In this document: piece after piece, positions 26,107-33,547 of the stretch
Numbering within the stretch: position 1 is the stretch's first letter
Layout of the letters: every line of letters begins with the position of its first letter
Origin: Candidatus Kaiserbacteria bacterium
GTDB taxonomy: Bacteria > Patescibacteriota > Minisyncoccia > Phycocordibacterales > UBA2100
Length of the DNA: 34,733 nt
Assembly (NCBI GenBank): GCA_016217965.1
Contig: JACRFI010000023.1
Location: 1-34,733 of the forward strand
Reading direction: 5' to 3'
Made by a program: the position numbers and the translations under genes
The notes under the pieces: model-generated
What the model was told of the DNA's origin: nothing
Seen by the model: the letters and a program-made list of their open reading frames with translations, nothing else
The model's database searches: none

Positions 26107-27096
26107 CTATACGGCTTTTCGAGCGATTGCTCTCTTCGCTGCAACAGCGATATGCGAGGCACCCATCTCGTAGTGTTCAATGAGCTCTTTTGCCTCCCCT
26201 GACTGGCCGAATTTGTCTTGCATGCCCACAAATTCGATAGGTGTCGGCGCTTCTTTCGCGAGAAGTTCTGCTATCGCACCTCCAAGGCCTCCATGCACCT
26301 GGTGCTCTTCAACGGTAACAACCGCCCCTGCTTCTTTCGCGATCGTGACGATTTCCTGATCCAACGGCTTAAGCGTGTGTACGTTTGCCACGACAACAGA
26401 AATCCCTTCTTTCTCTAGCTCGCGCGCGGCAAGGAGCGCATTGTGCGTAAGAGGCCCGGTAGAAAAAATAGCCACTTGCGGACTCTCACCTTTCCAGAAA
26501 ATCCCAATTTTCCCGATCTCAAATGGAGTGTCAGCTGTAGTCATGATGGGAGATTTCTCTCGTCCGAATCGCATGTAGACCGGTTTTCCGAGTTTTGCCG
26601 CAGCAAGTGTTGCTTTTCTTCCCTCCTCGGAATCGCACGCGGATATCACCGTGAATTTCGGCATCGCGCGCATGAGCGCCATATCTTCGAGCGCTTGGTG
26701 CGTTGCGCCATCGGGCCCCACGGAAACTCCTGCGTGCATACCACACACGATCGCATGCAAGTCATTGAGCGCAATTGTTGTCCGTATCTGCTCCCAGTTC
26801 CTACCGGGAGAGAACGCGGCATACGAAGTAAAGAACGGGATTTTCCCATAGTTCGCCATGCCGGCAGCCACAGTTGCAAGATTTTGTTCGGCAACGCCGA
26901 CCTGGATGAACCTCTCCGGAAACGCCTTTTGGAAGTGATGCGCTTGAGTAGATTCCGCAAGATCCGCAGTAAGAACCACGACCCGCTCGTCGGCTTTCCC
27001 CGCTTCAACAACACCTTTCCCAAATCCCTCGCGCGTCGAAGCCATGTCGGGCTTCTCAAAGACATTCGCTGCAAGTTTTGCGTCTATGTTCAGCAT
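26107..27096 (-). CDS. transketolase C-terminal subunit
   Basis: VAEQNLATVAAGMANYGKIPFFTSYAAF, VGPDGATHQALEDMALMRAMP. Confidence 0.92.
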   Translation of the reverse strand: MLNIDAKLAANVFEKPDMASTREGFGKGVVEAGKADERVVVLTADLAESTQAHHFQKAFPERFIQVGVAEQNLATVAAGMANYGKIPFFTSYAAFSPGRNWEQIRTTIALNDLHAIVCGMHAGVSVGPDGATHQALEDMALMRAMPKFTVISACDSEEGRKATLAAAKLGKPVYMRFGREKSPIMTTADTPFEIGKIGIFWKGESPQVAIFSTGPLTHNALLAARELEKEGISVVVANVHTLKPLDQEIVTIAKEAGAVVTVEEHQVHGGLGGAIAELLAKEAPTPIEFVGMQDKFGQSGEAKELIEHYEMGASHIAVAAKRAIARKAV

Positions 27097-27097
27097 A

Positions 27098-27961
27098 CTA
27101 TTTTACGTGTGCCATTAGCTCCTCAAGAAAAGTATCTTTCTGTTTGTCTGCTGGAATTTTATCCGTAGGCCCCTTCCCTGGTGGAGCACCGTGCCAACGA
27201 TAGTCGTTTTCTATCGTCGGGACACCTTTTCCTGGCGTTGTATGCGCGAGAATAAGTGTTGGCTTTTCTTTGATGGATTTCGCTTCATCACATGCTTCAA
27301 TGAACTGTTGGATGTTGTGTCCGTCTATCGTAATCACGTGCCAGTTGAACGCGCGATATTTATCGGCAAGCGGTTCGAGTGGCATCACATCTTCCGTGTT
27401 GCCATCGATCTGAATGTTGTTGCGATCCATGATCGCGGTCAGATTCGTCAAGCGATACTTGCCGGCGAACATCGCAGCCTCCCACGTGTTTCCTTCTTCC
27501 TGCTCACCGTCCGACATCGCACAGAATACGCGAAAATTCTTACCGTCCATCCGCGCGGCGTATGCGTACCCCGACGCTTGCGACAAACCTGAGCCAAGAG
27601 GGCCGGATGTCGTTTCGACGCCAGGCAGCATGTCACGCTCTGGGTGACCCTGAAGCCGGGAGCCGAATTTACGAAGTGTCATGCACTCTTCCACGGGAAA
27701 ATAACCCGCATGTGCCATCGCCGAATATCGCACTGGGCAGATATGCCCGTTCGAGAGAAAAAGCCTGTCTCTCTCGGCCCAGTCAGGCTTTAGGGGGTCG
27801 TGCTTCAATACGTGAAAATAGAGCGCCGCGAAAATGTCTGTCATCCCAAGGGGTCCCGCCAGGTGCCCCGACTTCGCTGCCGCAAGCATTTCAATGATGG
27901 TTTTGCGGATAGCGAGCGCCTTTTCTTCAATATTCTTTACTTCCGCATCTGTGATGGCCAT
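27098..27961 (-). CDS. transketolase N-terminal subunit
   Basis: SGHLAGPLGMTDIFAALYFHVL, GPLGSGLSQASGYAYAARMDG, DGEQEEGNTWEAAMFAG. Confidence 0.92.
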   Translation of the reverse strand: MAITDAEVKNIEEKALAIRKTIIEMLAAAKSGHLAGPLGMTDIFAALYFHVLKHDPLKPDWAERDRLFLSNGHICPVRYSAMAHAGYFPVEECMTLRKFGSRLQGHPERDMLPGVETTSGPLGSGLSQASGYAYAARMDGKNFRVFCAMSDGEQEEGNTWEAAMFAGKYRLTNLTAIMDRNNIQIDGNTEDVMPLEPLADKYRAFNWHVITIDGHNIQQFIEACDEAKSIKEKPTLILAHTTPGKGVPTIENDYRWHGAPPGKGPTDKIPADKQKDTFLEELMAHVK

Positions 27962-27974
27962 GGTCGAGATTGTA

Positions 27975-28412
27975 CTACAAATTCAGTAACTTGAGTCCAA
28001 TTTCATCATCAAGCTCGCGCGATATTGCTTCGTTGTATGCAGTCAATTCTACTTCAAGAGTTACAGCTACTTTCGCCTCGAATACGTGTCCTCCCACGGG
28101 CTGATTTTCAATGCCCTTTTTGATTCCAGAGAGTACAGCGTGCATATGCACAAACGGTTTTCCCTCAACCTGCGTGACATTACCCGTCATAGAAGCTACT
28201 TCTCGCTCATCGGCATACAAGATAGAACCATATTTTTTGGCATCCAAATCATAGTAGCCAACCTTCGCCTGTTTTACGGCACCGATCGCCCGGAATGAAG
28301 CGCTCAAAATTCCTTTCCGCTCGCAGAAATCCGTTATCGCGAGGATAACATCTTCATCTTTTTGCAGCCGCAACATATAACGGCCTCGTTCTGTTACTTC
28401 CCTTGCCTGCAT
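27975..28412 (-). CDS. PPC/DUF296 (PCC) domain DNA-binding-like protein
   Basis: YMLRLQKDEDVILAITDFCERKGILSASFRAIGAVKQAKVGYYD; HMHAVLS; 5' end overlaps the aroB 3' end. Confidence 0.8.
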   Translation of the reverse strand: MQAREVTERGRYMLRLQKDEDVILAITDFCERKGILSASFRAIGAVKQAKVGYYDLDAKKYGSILYADEREVASMTGNVTQVEGKPFVHMHAVLSGIKKGIENQPVGGHVFEAKVAVTLEVELTAYNEAISRELDDEIGLKLLNL

Positions 28413-29500
28413 AGATTGAATGCTTTTGTAACAATACCAGCACTCACAGGATGCGCATACATCCCACCCTTTTTATGAACGGACCCAATGCCTGAAAGAA
28501 GCACATAATGAGGAACGCCTCCCTTGCTTTTCTTGTCTGTCTTTGCTGTTTCCAAAATGCTCGCGATAGAAAATTGAGATAGTTTCTTCCCTTGTATACC
28601 AAGCTCAGCAAGTGCATTACGGATAGACTCGTACTCTGAGTGAGAAATAAACCCGAGCAATTCCGAGATCTTACTCTCGACAAGCATGCCGTACCCGACC
28701 GAGTACCCGTGCGATATCTTGAAACGCGAAAGGAGTTCGATGGCATGACCTATGGTGTGCCCGAAATTCACGACGAGCCTCTCGCCGCTCTCACGTTCAT
28801 CCCGTTCCGTAATGCCCGCCTTTATCGAGATTGAACGGTGTATGATCTCCTGAAGGAGTTTCTTCGTTTTGAAGGGTGAGGCGATATCAAGCCCCCTCAC
28901 TCGATTGAGAGCGAGAGCATCTGAAGTAAGAAATGTTTTGATCGCCTCAAAAAGCCCGTTTACGAATTCTTTACGCGACAAATACTGAAGGAAGGCAATA
29001 TCTGCAATGACCGCACGCGGTTGCCAAAATGCTCCGACAGTATTCTTACCAAATGGTGTATTGATGCCAACCTTTCCGCCGATGGAACTGTCTACCATCG
29101 CTAGGAGTGTCGTAGGAGCTTGGATGTAGGGGATGCCGCGCATGTAGGTCGCGGCAACGAACCCTGCGAGATCACCGGTAACACCGCCTCCGAGCGCTAT
29201 GATGAGTGAATCTCTACCAAATTTTTTCTTGAGCATCTGGTGCTGAAGCTTCGTCACCATTTCTTGAGTTTTATTTCTTTCTCCAGCGGGGAACGGAAAT
29301 AATTCTGCACGGATACCAGCCTTCTTTAACGCTCCCATGATACGAGTGCCTAGTATCCGCACCACCGTGTTATCAGCAATCACCGCAACGCGGCGTGCGC
29401 CTTCTTTTTTTACCGCTGCGGCCAATTCGCGCTCAAGTTTCTCTCCCACGATAATTGGGTATGAAGTGTGCTTTGTTTTTACATGGACTGTACGGGTCAT
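28394..29500 (-). CDS. aroB: 3-dehydroquinate synthase
   Basis: LGGGVTGDLAGFVAATYMRGIPYIQAPTTLLAMVDSSIGGKVGINTPFGKNTVGAF. Confidence 0.94.
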   Translation of the reverse strand: MTRTVHVKTKHTSYPIIVGEKLERELAAAVKKEGARRVAVIADNTVVRILGTRIMGALKKAGIRAELFPFPAGERNKTQEMVTKLQHQMLKKKFGRDSLIIALGGGVTGDLAGFVAATYMRGIPYIQAPTTLLAMVDSSIGGKVGINTPFGKNTVGAFWQPRAVIADIAFLQYLSRKEFVNGLFEAIKTFLTSDALALNRVRGLDIASPFKTKKLLQEIIHRSISIKAGITERDERESGERLVVNFGHTIGHAIELLSRFKISHGYSVGYGMLVESKISELLGFISHSEYESIRNALAELGIQGKKLSQFSIASILETAKTDKKSKGGVPHYVLLSGIGSVHKKGGMYAHPVSAGIVTKAFNLCRQGK

Positions 29501-29501
29501 A

Positions 29502-29634
29502 CCCGGTTAGTGAAATTTCGGCTGGCGCTAGGCTTAGGGTCGCTGTCGTAAGAACGTGATGTGCTGTACTTTTTATTCATAGGTGTATGTTGTTGATTGG
29601 TTTAGATGAGACAAGCCGAAATTCTACTACCGGG
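29502..29634. mobile_element. 133-bp MITE-like element, copy 1, between aroG and aroB
   Basis: Imperfect inverted ends CCCGGTTAGTGAAATTTCGGCT/AGCCGAAATTCTACTACCGGG; flanking duplication TCATA; about 89% identical to copy 2. Confidence 0.8.
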
Positions 29635-30825
29635 TCATATCTCTTTCGCAACTTCCCTTAGAAGCTCTTGTGTTGCATCCCACCCGACGCACGGGTCGGT
29701 GATAGACAAGCCTCCTCTATCTATAGTCTCTGCCGTTAGCTTCTCGAGTTTCTGGCTTCCCTCCTGAATAAAGCTTTCCATCATGAATCCTTTGACCAGT
29801 CTTTTATATTCAGGATTCTTTTTCAATGCAAAGAGCACTTCTTTCACGACCACAGGTTGCTGCGCAGGTTCTTTCGCCCCGTTCAAGCGACAGTTCTCAT
29901 GGCTTACGTCGATAAGTATTGAGGGATTCTTTATCTTGTGCTTCTCGAAAAGCGCTGCCGCAGCATGTACGTGTTCTTGAGAATAGTTCGGGCCGCCTTC
30001 TCCTCCGCGCAGCACCAAGTGTGCATACGGATTTCCTTTTGTCTCGACTTGGTAGCCATCGAGAACGGCATGATGCTTGTGCTGCGCGGCGACGATGCCA
30101 TTTACCGCAACTTCGATTGATCCGGAAGTGCTATTTTTCATTCCCACCGGGCAGCTGACGCTGGAAGCAAAGATACGGTGTTCCTGGTCTTCGACGCTGC
30201 GTGCACCAATCGCCATCCATGAGAGAAGTTCAGCGAATCCTTTTGCATTGTGCGTGAAGAGAGCTTCGTCTGCGATAGGAAGCCCCATCTCGACTATTTT
30301 CACCATCATGTCGCGGCAATATAGTGCGCCCTCTGCAATATCCGGTTCTTGATATGGGTCAACCTGGTTGACGGGCCCGAGCCAGCCGCGGATAGTGCGA
30401 GGCTTTTGGATATACACACGCATGACAAGTTTGAGTTTCTCCGAGACTTCATCGGAGAGTTTTTTAAGGCGCTTTGCATACTTCAAGACCGCCTCCGAAG
30501 GCCATGCGGAGCAGGGACCCACGATGAAGAGCAGCCTGTCGTCCCTCCCTGCCAAAATATCTTCGATTTCTTTCCGATCTTTCTTTACTTGGGATAGCCC
30601 CTCATCAGAAATTGGATGCGCAGCAATTATCTCATCCGCAGACGGAAGCTTTTTTATGATGCGGACATTCATCCCATTAGAAATATCACGCCCAAGTCCT
30701 CCGGACGCGCCCGCGCGGGCCCCGTTAGAAGCATGGACCTCGTGTTCAGCAGCCGCGTGCGGCTGGCTTTTAACGGAGCGGGCGTGATTTCTAACGGGAC
30801 GAGTTATTTTTTTTCTCGTTTTCAT
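29635..30825 (-). CDS. aroG: 3-deoxy-7-phosphoheptulonate (DAHP) synthase, AroFGH type, with 42-aa repeat-derived N-terminal segment
   Basis: DDRLLFIVGPCSAWPSEAVLKYAKRL, VMRVYIQKPRTIRGWLG, SCPVGMKNSTSGSIEVAVNGIVAAQ. Confidence 0.93.
   Translation of the reverse strand: MKTRKKITRPVRNHARSVKSQPHAAAEHEVHASNGARAGASGGLGRDISNGMNVRIIKKLPSADEIIAAHPISDEGLSQVKKDRKEIEDILAGRDDRLLFIVGPCSAWPSEAVLKYAKRLKKLSDEVSEKLKLVMRVYIQKPRTIRGWLGPVNQVDPYQEPDIAEGALYCRDMMVKIVEMGLPIADEALFTHNAKGFAELLSWMAIGARSVEDQEHRIFASSVSCPVGMKNSTSGSIEVAVNGIVAAQHKHHAVLDGYQVETKGNPYAHLVLRGGEGGPNYSQEHVHAAAALFEKHKIKNPSILIDVSHENCRLNGAKEPAQQPVVVKEVLFALKKNPEYKRLVKGFMMESFIQEGSQKLEKLTAETIDRGGLSITDPCVGWDATQELLREVAKEI
30673..30798. repeat. 126-bp palindromic element in frame within aroG
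   Basis: CCCATTAGAAATATCACGCCC ... GGGCGTGATTTCTAACGGG ends; inner CAGCCGC-GT-GCGGCTG hairpin; 126 = 42 codons. Confidence 0.7.
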
Positions 30826-31622
30826 ATAGATTGCTTTTGTAACGCATCTTGCAGCAGTGCAGTATACCCATAATCCCGAATTTCCCTATCAAGCCACAGC
30901 CTTTCCTGCTCAAGCCCTTGCGCGACGAACATGGAAAGCCCCGAGATTGCACGCGCACCTTTCGCAGAGGTGTGCTTCAAAAGCGGCGTCTCCGTATAAA
31001 TGAGATCGAGTACTGTCGTGTCCTTCGTTATCAATTCCTCCCTAATGGGCAGTGGATCGCTCAGTTTGAGTCCAACGGAGGTTGCATTGACGATGAGTGA
31101 AAATCTGCCTGGGCTGATGGATGACAGGTCGTCTTCGACAACGCCACCGAATCTGCTACGCATCTCTTCTGCTTTTTCCTTTGTTCGATTGTGATAGAAA
31201 ACATGTGCGCCCTTAAATTTCAGATAGTATGCAACCGGATATGCGGCGCCTCCCGCGCCGAGAAGAAGTACGTCTTTGCCGGAGACTTGCACGCCCTTCA
31301 GTGCTGCCTCGATCCCCACAATGTCCGTGTTGTAGCCGCGGAGCACTCCATCTGTATTGAGAAGCGTGTTCACTGCACCGATATCGCTGGCTCTCGCATC
31401 TATCTCGTCCACATACTGCATCACCGACTGCTTATGCGGCAGCGTGACCGCAGCAAGATGAATGGGAAGCGCCCGCATCTTTTCTGTGAATGCCGCTATG
31501 TCCTCTTCGTCATACGCATGCATGTCTGCATCTACGCCTTCGTGCTTGTAGATAGCGTTATGCAACAAAGGAGAGAGGCTGTGGGATATCGGATGCCCAA
31601 CGACGGCTGTTTGGAGTGTCAT
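30822..31622 (-). CDS. aroE: shikimate dehydrogenase
   Basis: VVGHPISHSLSPLLHNAIYKHEG, LGAGGAAYPVAYYLKFKGAHVFYHNRTKEKA; ATGA overlaps with both neighbours. Confidence 0.93.
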   Translation of the reverse strand: MTLQTAVVGHPISHSLSPLLHNAIYKHEGVDADMHAYDEEDIAAFTEKMRALPIHLAAVTLPHKQSVMQYVDEIDARASDIGAVNTLLNTDGVLRGYNTDIVGIEAALKGVQVSGKDVLLLGAGGAAYPVAYYLKFKGAHVFYHNRTKEKAEEMRSRFGGVVEDDLSSISPGRFSLIVNATSVGLKLSDPLPIREELITKDTTVLDLIYTETPLLKHTSAKGARAISGLSMFVAQGLEQERLWLDREIRDYGYTALLQDALQKQSI

Positions 31623-32050
31623 ATTCTTTTTTGGAGCTCGGCGAGCGCCTCGACGTATCCTTGTTCCTTCTTGCCACTGATCTGAAGCACACACGCAGGA
31701 GCAATCACGGACATTTGCCTCCATGTCTCACGTTTTTTTATATCGGAAAGATGCACTTCAATAGCTGGAAGCCCAGTATCTTTTATTGCGTCGTGCAATG
31801 CGTAGCTGTAGTGCGTAAACGCACCGGGATTGATAATAATGCCCGCTGCGCTTTCGCTCTCCGCCTGTAAAAAATCGATGAGCTCCCCTTCGTGATTTGA
31901 TTGGAACGCTTTCACTTCGATATCCGCTTTTCTAGCCTCATCTCGTACAAGATTCTCAATATCAGAAAGCGTGACACTCCCGTAGTGCTGCGCGTCGCGC
32001 TTTCCCAAGCGATTCAGGTTAGGTCCGTGAATAAGTAAAATTGTCTTCAT
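31619..32050 (-). CDS. aroQ: 3-dehydroquinate dehydratase, type II
   Basis: LLIHGPNLNRLGKRD...YGSVTLSDIE, FQSNHEGELIDFLQ, INPGAFTHYSYALHDAI. Confidence 0.95.
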   Translation of the reverse strand: MKTILLIHGPNLNRLGKRDAQHYGSVTLSDIENLVRDEARKADIEVKAFQSNHEGELIDFLQAESESAAGIIINPGAFTHYSYALHDAIKDTGLPAIEVHLSDIKKRETWRQMSVIAPACVLQISGKKEQGYVEALAELQKRI

Positions 32051-32183: not shown

Positions 32184-32205
32184 AAAAGAGCCCTTTCGAG
32201 GGCCC
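32184..32205 (-). terminator. attenuator terminator (3:4 hairpin) of the aro operon
   Basis: Minus strand GGGCCCT-CGAA-AGGGCTC followed by TTTTC; stem 7 bp including one G-U. Confidence 0.7.
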
Positions 32206-32265
32206 GATTCCGCTATCGTATCTTTTTGTTTACGATCGCGCAAACGAGACCTCGAGCTTGAGGTC
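32198..32265 (-). promoter_or_regulatory. alternative 1:2 and 2:3 (antiterminator) pairings of the aro leader
   Basis: 1: GACCUC (32265-32260); 2: GAGGUCUCGUUUGCGCGAUCGU (32253-32232); 3: ACGAUAGCGGAAUCGGGCCCUC (32219-32198); 2:3 pairs about 18 of 22 positions including one G-U. Confidence 0.75.
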
Positions 32266-32304
32266 ATAAAAGAAAAACCAAAAGAAATACTGCGCGCGAG
32301 TCAT
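32230..32304 (-). CDS. aromatic-rich leader peptide MTRAQYFFWFFFYDLKLEVSFARS
   Basis: ATG ACT CGC GCG CAG TAT TTC TTT TGG TTT TTC TTT TAT ... TAA, directly upstream of the attenuator structures and aroQ. Confidence 0.85.
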   Translation of the reverse strand: MTRAQYFFWFFFYDLKLEVSFARS

Positions 32305-32312
32305 GTATGTAC

Positions 32313-32340
32313 AGGCTACCGCTTGTTGGAAAATTGTCAA
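32313..32340 (-). promoter_or_regulatory. candidate promoter of the aro leader/operon
   Basis: TTGACA (32340-32335), 16-bp spacer, TAGCCT (32318-32313); good -35, weak -10. Confidence 0.5.
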
Positions 32341-32473
32341 CCCGGTTAGTGAAATTTCGGCTGGCGCACGGCGCAAAGTCGCTGTCGTAAGAACGTGATG
32401 TGCTGTACTTTTGATTCAAACGTTACTGTTGTTGATCGGTTTAGATGAGACGAGCCGAAATTCTACTACCGGG
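32341..32473. mobile_element. 133-bp MITE-like element, copy 2, between rpe and the aro leader promoter
   Basis: Same ends and length as copy 1, 14 mismatches by eye; flanking TCAA duplication. Confidence 0.8.
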
Positions 32474-32485
32474 TCAACGCTGTTA

Positions 32486-33142: not shown

Positions 33143-33547
33143 AAGTTGAGAGTCATGAGTCACGAGAGCGTACGATCATCGTCGAGAGCATTCTACTTAC
33201 TTCAGTGGCATACTTCTCCGCTTCGCTTACAAGTGTAGCATCTGCATATCGCACTCTCTGGGCAATCTCCATTTGTGTTTCTAATTCAGCAACAGAACCA
33301 AGAGCAATGCAAAGAAAATTACGGAAATCTGCTTTTGTACTTCTTTTGCTGCCTTCTGCAATATTTGAAGGAATTGAAACTGCGCTACGACGCATCTGGC
33401 TTGTTAGCCCGAATGTCTCAGATTTGGGAAACTTTTCAGTCATTGTATAAATTGAAACAACCAAATCCATCGCTTTTTGCCAAACAATCAATTCTCGATA
33501 GCCGCCCGCCATGCATTCTAAGATTTATGTCTTATGACTTATGACTA
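33136..33547. mobile_element. 412-bp cassette with perfect 11-bp terminal inverted repeats carrying an S23-type gene
   Basis: TAGTCATAAGT (33136-33146) / ACTTATGACTA (33537-33547). Confidence 0.55.
33153..33512 (-). CDS. four-helix bundle protein (23S rRNA-intervening-sequence protein / bAvd-like family)
   Basis: YRELIVWQKAMDLVVSIYTMTEKFPKSETFGLTSQMRRSAVSIPSNIAEGSKR. Confidence 0.92.
   Translation of the reverse strand: MAGGYRELIVWQKAMDLVVSIYTMTEKFPKSETFGLTSQMRRSAVSIPSNIAEGSKRSTKADFRNFLCIALGSVAELETQMEIAQRVRYADATLVSEAEKYATEVSRMLSTMIVRSRDS

Follow-up and report, generated by a model that had tools for sequence, protein, structure and literature searches.

The window, by which we mean the whole 34,733-nucleotide stretch of DNA analyzed here, corresponds to C19, one of the 23 contigs in the 982-kb genome (G000) of a Candidatus Kaiserbacteria bacterium. 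Its minus strand codes for aroQ, aroE, aroG and aroB (Table 1). Downstream of aroB lie a gene for a PCC-domain protein and then a transketolase that is split over two genes. As inferred from strand and spacing, these two genes may form the distal end of the operon, where they would supply erythrose-4-phosphate. Upstream of the leader described below are rpe and rpiB, with a gene for a four-helix protein of the 23S rRNA intervening-sequence type between them. An intergenic repeat of about 135 bp, bounded by imperfect 21-nt terminal inverted repeats (81%), has one copy just upstream of the leader, ending at the −35 region, and another between aroG and aroB. Several copies occur in the genome at 78–89% identity (7 aligned), and an Rfam search of the window returned no match for this repeat.

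Table 1. Features of the aro locus, its leader and neighboring elements, in window coordinates.
Feature	Position	Strand	Evidence or remark
Split transketolase, two genes	26107..27961	minus	PF00456, PF02779
aroB, 3-dehydroquinate synthase	28394..29500	minus	PF01761
~135-bp repeat, copy between aroG and aroB	29496..29637
aroG, class I DAHP synthase	29635..30825	minus	PF00793, E 4.2e-55
aroE, shikimate dehydrogenase	30822..31622	minus	PF08501
aroQ, type II 3-dehydroquinate dehydratase	31619..32050	minus	PF01220, E 1.7e-53
Intrinsic terminator (3:4), GGGCCCU-CGAA-AGGGCUC + UUUU	32184..32205	minus	hairpin proper 32205–32188, then TTTT; same overlap in 30/33 relatives
Segment 3, antiterminator 3′ arm	32198..32220	minus	3′ part doubles as terminator 5′ arm
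Segment 2, antiterminator 5′ arm	32231..32253	minus	covariation and folds; overlaps the stop codon
Segment 1 (GACCUC)	32260..32265	minus	pairs with 32253–32248, z −3.8
Control codons Tyr-Phe-Phe-Trp-Phe-Phe-Phe-Tyr	32266..32289	minus	codons 6–13, TAT TTC TTT TGG TTT TTC TTT TAT
Leader peptide ORF, MTRAQYFFWFFFYDLKLEVSFARS-stop	32230..32304	minus	ATG at 32304, stop 32232–32230; homologous peptides in L097, L100, L107
−10-like TAGCCT	32313..32318	minus	16-nt spacer, 8 nt ahead of leader ATG
−35-like TTGACA	32335..32340	minus	read from sequence
~135-bp repeat, copy upstream of leader	32336..32476
Four-helix protein gene	33153..33512		PF05635

A preliminary description of this locus had proposed an unannotated leader peptide of 24 residues with eight consecutive aromatic codons ahead of aroQ. 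Re-reading the sequence confirms this ORF. No other run of at least five aromatic codons occurs in the six frames of the window. Dinucleotide shuffles (n = 200) contained on average 0.2 runs of at least five and 0.015 runs of at least six such codons, and none of seven or more. A short ORF with clustered codons for the products of the biosynthetic operon that follows is one criterion for an attenuator, and it is met here.

The same description had assigned competing RNA segments 1:2, 2:3 and 3:4 to the span 32184–32304. These assignments hold in the window, and the span covers the element; the promoter-like TTGACA falls just outside. Segment 1 is complementary to the GAGGUC that opens segment 2. 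When folded separately, the 1:2, 2:3 and 3:4 helices reach −11.8, −27.9 and −14.0 kcal/mol. Two further criteria for an attenuator are thereby met, since an intrinsic terminator precedes the first structural gene and the antiterminator and terminator exclude each other. The protector hairpin 1:2 is strong in the window and in three close relatives (z −3.8 to −5.3); it is only weakly conserved, with weak pairing, through much of the wider family. A plain fold of the region is unexceptional (z −1.1). A terminator scan by itself returns sites at chance level. The significance of the element therefore rests on the codon run and on comparative evidence, not on a single-sequence fold or a terminator scan.

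These unremarkable fold and terminator statistics, together with the position of the terminator between rpe and aroQ, favor a simpler explanation, namely that the hairpin and U-tract merely terminate transcription of the upstream rpe gene and that the aromatic ORF is no more than U-rich sequence arising by chance. We consider this very unlikely. Eight aromatic codons in a row were not reached in the shuffles; the ORF, its spacing and both helices are retained in relatives with a different upstream gene; and the codons track the downstream pathway, as detailed below.

We return to the attenuator reading and to the question of how the leader may be transcribed and translated. The −10 hexamer of the window is weak (3/6); its spacing is common to the family. 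An exact TTGACA stands in the matching position before the leader in L097, L100, L107, L118, L121, L140, L162, L177, L173, L191 and L208. Fourteen of 22 leaders combine a TTGACA-like −35 element (≥5/6) and a 16–17-nt spacer with a −10 element that ends 6–10 nt before the start codon, as compared to 0.94% of background ATGs with a promoter at this leaderless spacing. No Shine-Dalgarno sequence was found in the leaders compared for promoter spacing. Because the −10 element lies so close to the start codon and no Shine-Dalgarno sequence precedes it, we predict that most leaders of the family, including that of the window, are leaderless or nearly so. This prediction derives from promoter position and is not backed by transcript data. 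Leaderless leader ORFs have been reported for Sinorhizobium meliloti trpL and for Actinobacteria (PMC7298713, PMC8079986).

The distance between codons and RNA segments is also characteristic. Across the family, the ATG precedes segment 2 by a median of 54 nt, and the stop codon lies a median of 21 nt (IQR 19–22) past the point where segment 2 starts. Most aromatic leaders have their last aromatic codon ending 10–14 nt ahead of segment 2 (12 nt in the window). As inferred from known ribosome footprints, a ribosome with this codon in the A site should just cover segment 1. The position of the control codons thus satisfies the criterion that stalling there should hide segment 1 and leave segment 2 exposed. 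The single UGG of the window ends 24 nt ahead of segment 2. To judge from this spacing, a ribosome stalled at Trp would probably leave segment 1 exposed and favor termination. Since the Trp codon is this far from segment 2, Phe and Tyr are the likelier main signals. The initial suggestion that the leader senses all three end products is therefore not shown, and its Trp part is doubtful. In Corynebacterium glutamicum aroR, Tyr availability has no effect despite the Tyr codon in the leader (PMC11802643).

The preliminary description had named the absence of aromatic upstream ORFs in relatives as a possible refutation. AroQ is encoded in 15 of 70 genomes of the family, and the element is found just upstream of aroQ in three of these 15 loci: the window and two congeners, G029 (MVRGALNFFGFWFYELSLESSFARS-stop) and G047 (MQSRNSAWFTFFFYGLSIEGSSALL-stop). 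Both congeners contain TTGACA promoters and the 1:2, 2:3 and 3:4 alternatives; at these loci, L097 and L100, the upstream ORF before aroQ is rich in aromatic codons. The remaining 12 aroQ loci have no leader before aroQ, and in most of them aroQ directly follows rpe. Because three of 15 is an ambiguous result, we turned to a covariance model and to gene-first searches. The covariance model of the 2:3 helix identified MSRAMQWFYFFFFGASLEVSFARS-stop before a DAHP synthase gene in the same genus (L107), and, among the 398 genomes of the order that were searched, matched in 31, from 19 genera. Leaders before DAHP synthase include L117, L118, L121, L127, L129, L133, L139 and L140, with the DAHP synthase at L133 being a divergent homologue below NCBIfam cut-offs. 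About ten genomes besides the window's have such a leader. In the gene-first test, PF00793 was located in 22 of the 398 genomes before the upstream regions were checked with model R3. Nine of the 22 genes have an R3 match just upstream. Genome G178 has a leader (MNMTAQKWGFFYFFFNSQKGDFVATR-stop) before DAHP synthase without a model match. With the leader at the head of the operon in the window, 11 of 22 genomes contain an aromatic leader.

The 2:3 helix covaries. Over 33 sequences, 83.5% of its cells are paired, and 111 cells show double changes, compared to 35 ± 5.6 after shuffling and 25–34 when the helix is slid. Because a structural model was used to pick the set, this covariation is somewhat inflated; searches that started from the gene (DAHP synthase and leuA) are not tied to the model in the same way. 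The first covariance model (R1) had yielded few members. With model R2, a sample from across the phylum returned, besides the window, one weak match (L146) without a leader ORF, and therefore we make no claim outside the class. Weak matches at L109–L111, L144–L146 and L175 were rejected for lack of a convincing leader, and antisense matches were set aside as by-products of hairpin symmetry.

A second alternative is that a T-box or a small-molecule riboswitch controls the operon and that the short ORF is incidental. T-boxes do use an antiterminator/terminator layout, and another genome has a T-box-like match below the gathering threshold (L108, minus strand, 46 bits). Nevertheless, this alternative is all but excluded: no T-box or riboswitch family in Rfam matches the window region, and both the reading frame and the identity of the codons are retained and follow the pathway. 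The sole Rfam match at the element is the Phe leader (RF01859), aligned end to end over 32305–32181 with 21.9 bits (E 0.63). With a gathering threshold of 55, the window is not a member of that family by Rfam's criterion. At gathering threshold, a search of 15 loci returned only a tRNA.

The leader was initially treated as a single case. This view must be corrected, since it is one member of a family that occurs with other codon sets. Leucine-rich leaders (MRYKQGNLLGLLLTTSSGGFACV-stop and relatives) with the same RNA architecture precede each of the genus's four leuA genes that score above cut-off; two of these leaders were found only after they had been predicted from the other two. For four lower-scoring isopropylmalate-synthase-type genes (L229–L232) leaders were looked for and not found. 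An isoleucine version (MKQAIGIIAIITAPSGV-stop) precedes ridA-ilvA, proline versions with the motif SPVPP precede proC (with a weak family score) and proB, and a lysine version (MNRIQVQNVKKDKKISTHFRVCFCY-stop) precedes dapA. The window's own genome contains an arginine version (MESIKNIQNRRRAASS-stop) before argG (L208, G000:C3:1356–1439, plus strand). Among 178 genomes of the order, argG above cut-off was found in G000 only. For 24 leader–gene pairs, the observed match between codon identity and downstream pathway was reached by none of 20 000 shuffled pairings. Since these pairs were picked for a recognized pathway gene, this comparison tests the specificity of the pairing, not its frequency.

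The codon sets also bear on a third alternative, in which the leader acts by nascent-peptide arrest or by a general slowdown of translation instead of sensing charged aromatic tRNA. Some members, before uvrB and before unknown ORFs, indeed lack an obvious codon run. On the other hand, conservation of the peptide beyond the run is limited to the part that encodes segment 2, and the codons of the run change among Phe/Trp/Tyr, Leu, Ile, Pro, Arg and Lys with the downstream gene. This rival is therefore very unlikely.

Given these observations, the element is very likely a ribosome-mediated transcription attenuator of the aro operon, a verdict reached without transcript, translation or starvation data. 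The preliminary description had assigned pheL/trpL-type control to aroQ-aroE-aroG-aroB; relatives, 2:3 covariation and spacing support this assignment, while the regulation itself is inferred, and so are where transcription starts, that the leader is translated, that ribosomes stall on it and that starvation brings read-through. We propose that the transcript would start on the leader AUG or only a few bases away from it, as inferred from promoter position, and that a ribosome would load onto this nearly leaderless end. A shortage of aromatic aminoacyl-tRNA would make the ribosome stall among the aromatic codons. If the last Tyr/Phe codons occupy the A site, its front edge would cover segment 1 and leave segment 2 free to form 2:3, so that no terminator arises and aroQ-aroE-aroG-aroB is transcribed. 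When charged tRNA is plentiful, the ribosome would complete the leader, whose stop codon closes segment 2, and would cover this segment; 3:4 would then end transcription about 130 nt before aroQ. Departure of the ribosome would allow 1:2 to form, which also favors termination.

We surmise, as the likely broader reading, that Kaiserbacteria-type CPR and other families of the order and class share one attenuator design in which the codons alone are changed. This design would comprise a leaderless leader ORF and a shared 2:3:4 module, with Phe/Tyr/Trp codons before aroQ and DAHP synthase, Leu before leuA, Ile before ridA-ilvA, Pro before proB/proC, Arg before argG and Lys before dapA. There may be further versions that are not tied to biosynthesis (uvrB).

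The attenuation mechanism as such is classical, and an attenuator of DAHP synthase is already known in Corynebacterium. The C. glutamicum aroR-aroF system likewise places an aromatic leader (Phe-Tyr-Phe) before DAHP synthase, the first gene of the common pathway, and ribosome stalling enhances transcription of this operon (PMC4046766, PMC11802643). In contrast, the window represents another phylum, has a run of eight codons including Trp, heads an aroQ operon, and belongs to a family with one shared RNA architecture; we claim a functional analogy only. Enterobacterial pheL/pheA resembles the window in its Phe-rich leader and segments 1–4. In pheL/pheA, a stalled ribosome masks segment 1. The window differs by its mixed Tyr/Phe/Trp codons, by control of the common pathway instead of pheA, and by a stop codon at the end of segment 2. 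In S. meliloti trpL the leader AUG is the 5′ end of the transcript (PMC7298713), which is only predicted for the window; trpL is Trp-specific and a different RNA. The E. coli pheST leader (pheM) finds a parallel, in a different lineage, in an aromatic leader of the present family (L136) before a PheS-like gene that falls below NCBIfam pheS cut-offs.

The authors of a 2010 survey knew of no demonstrated leader-peptide attenuators outside Proteobacteria and Actinobacteria, and extended the range to Firmicutes (PMC2965389). Among the open-access papers searched, none joins CPR, Patescibacteria or Parcubacteria with leader-peptide attenuators. What is probably new is the phylum, the single RNA design with swapped codons, and the Pro, Arg and Lys versions. 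If true, Pro, Arg and Lys would be new codon classes for ribosome-mediated control of the corresponding syntheses, and attenuation would be a major means of amino-acid regulation in a lineage to which little regulation is ascribed. Codon-matched leaders for at least six pathways suggest that these reduced genomes control the biosynthesis they retain through the coupling of transcription to translation. The leader codons may serve as a readout of the amino acids that an uncultured cell monitors, and could guide annotators to leader ORFs missed so far and to the function of the operons behind them.

Several members of the family have less evident contexts. Some precede genes without an evident link to amino acids, such as uvrB and small unknown ORFs. 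L122, L125, L138, L141 and L143 lie 270–850 nt upstream of uvrB (recognized by eye), in several cases with a small unknown ORF intervening, and their leaders lack a single-amino-acid run. Leu-type leaders without a downstream leuA occur at L181 (G000:C21:6577–6671, minus strand) and L182 (G029:C5:213160–213252, minus strand); neither G000 nor G029 contains a leuA match, and these leaders are possibly relics or may act on something else. Very similar NFWFYF leaders are found in other families of the class (L190, L194 and L196), with no aromatic gene seen within 1.5 kb; L194 and L196 precede LemA-like genes (recognized by eye). The T-box-like match at L108 (positions 1235–1394 of this locus, from G015; gathering threshold 93) lies upstream of a SerA-like gene and adjoins an Ile/Thr-codon leader on the opposite strand. 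The hairpin of L208, a second candidate attenuator of this family in G000, ends 15 nt before argG.
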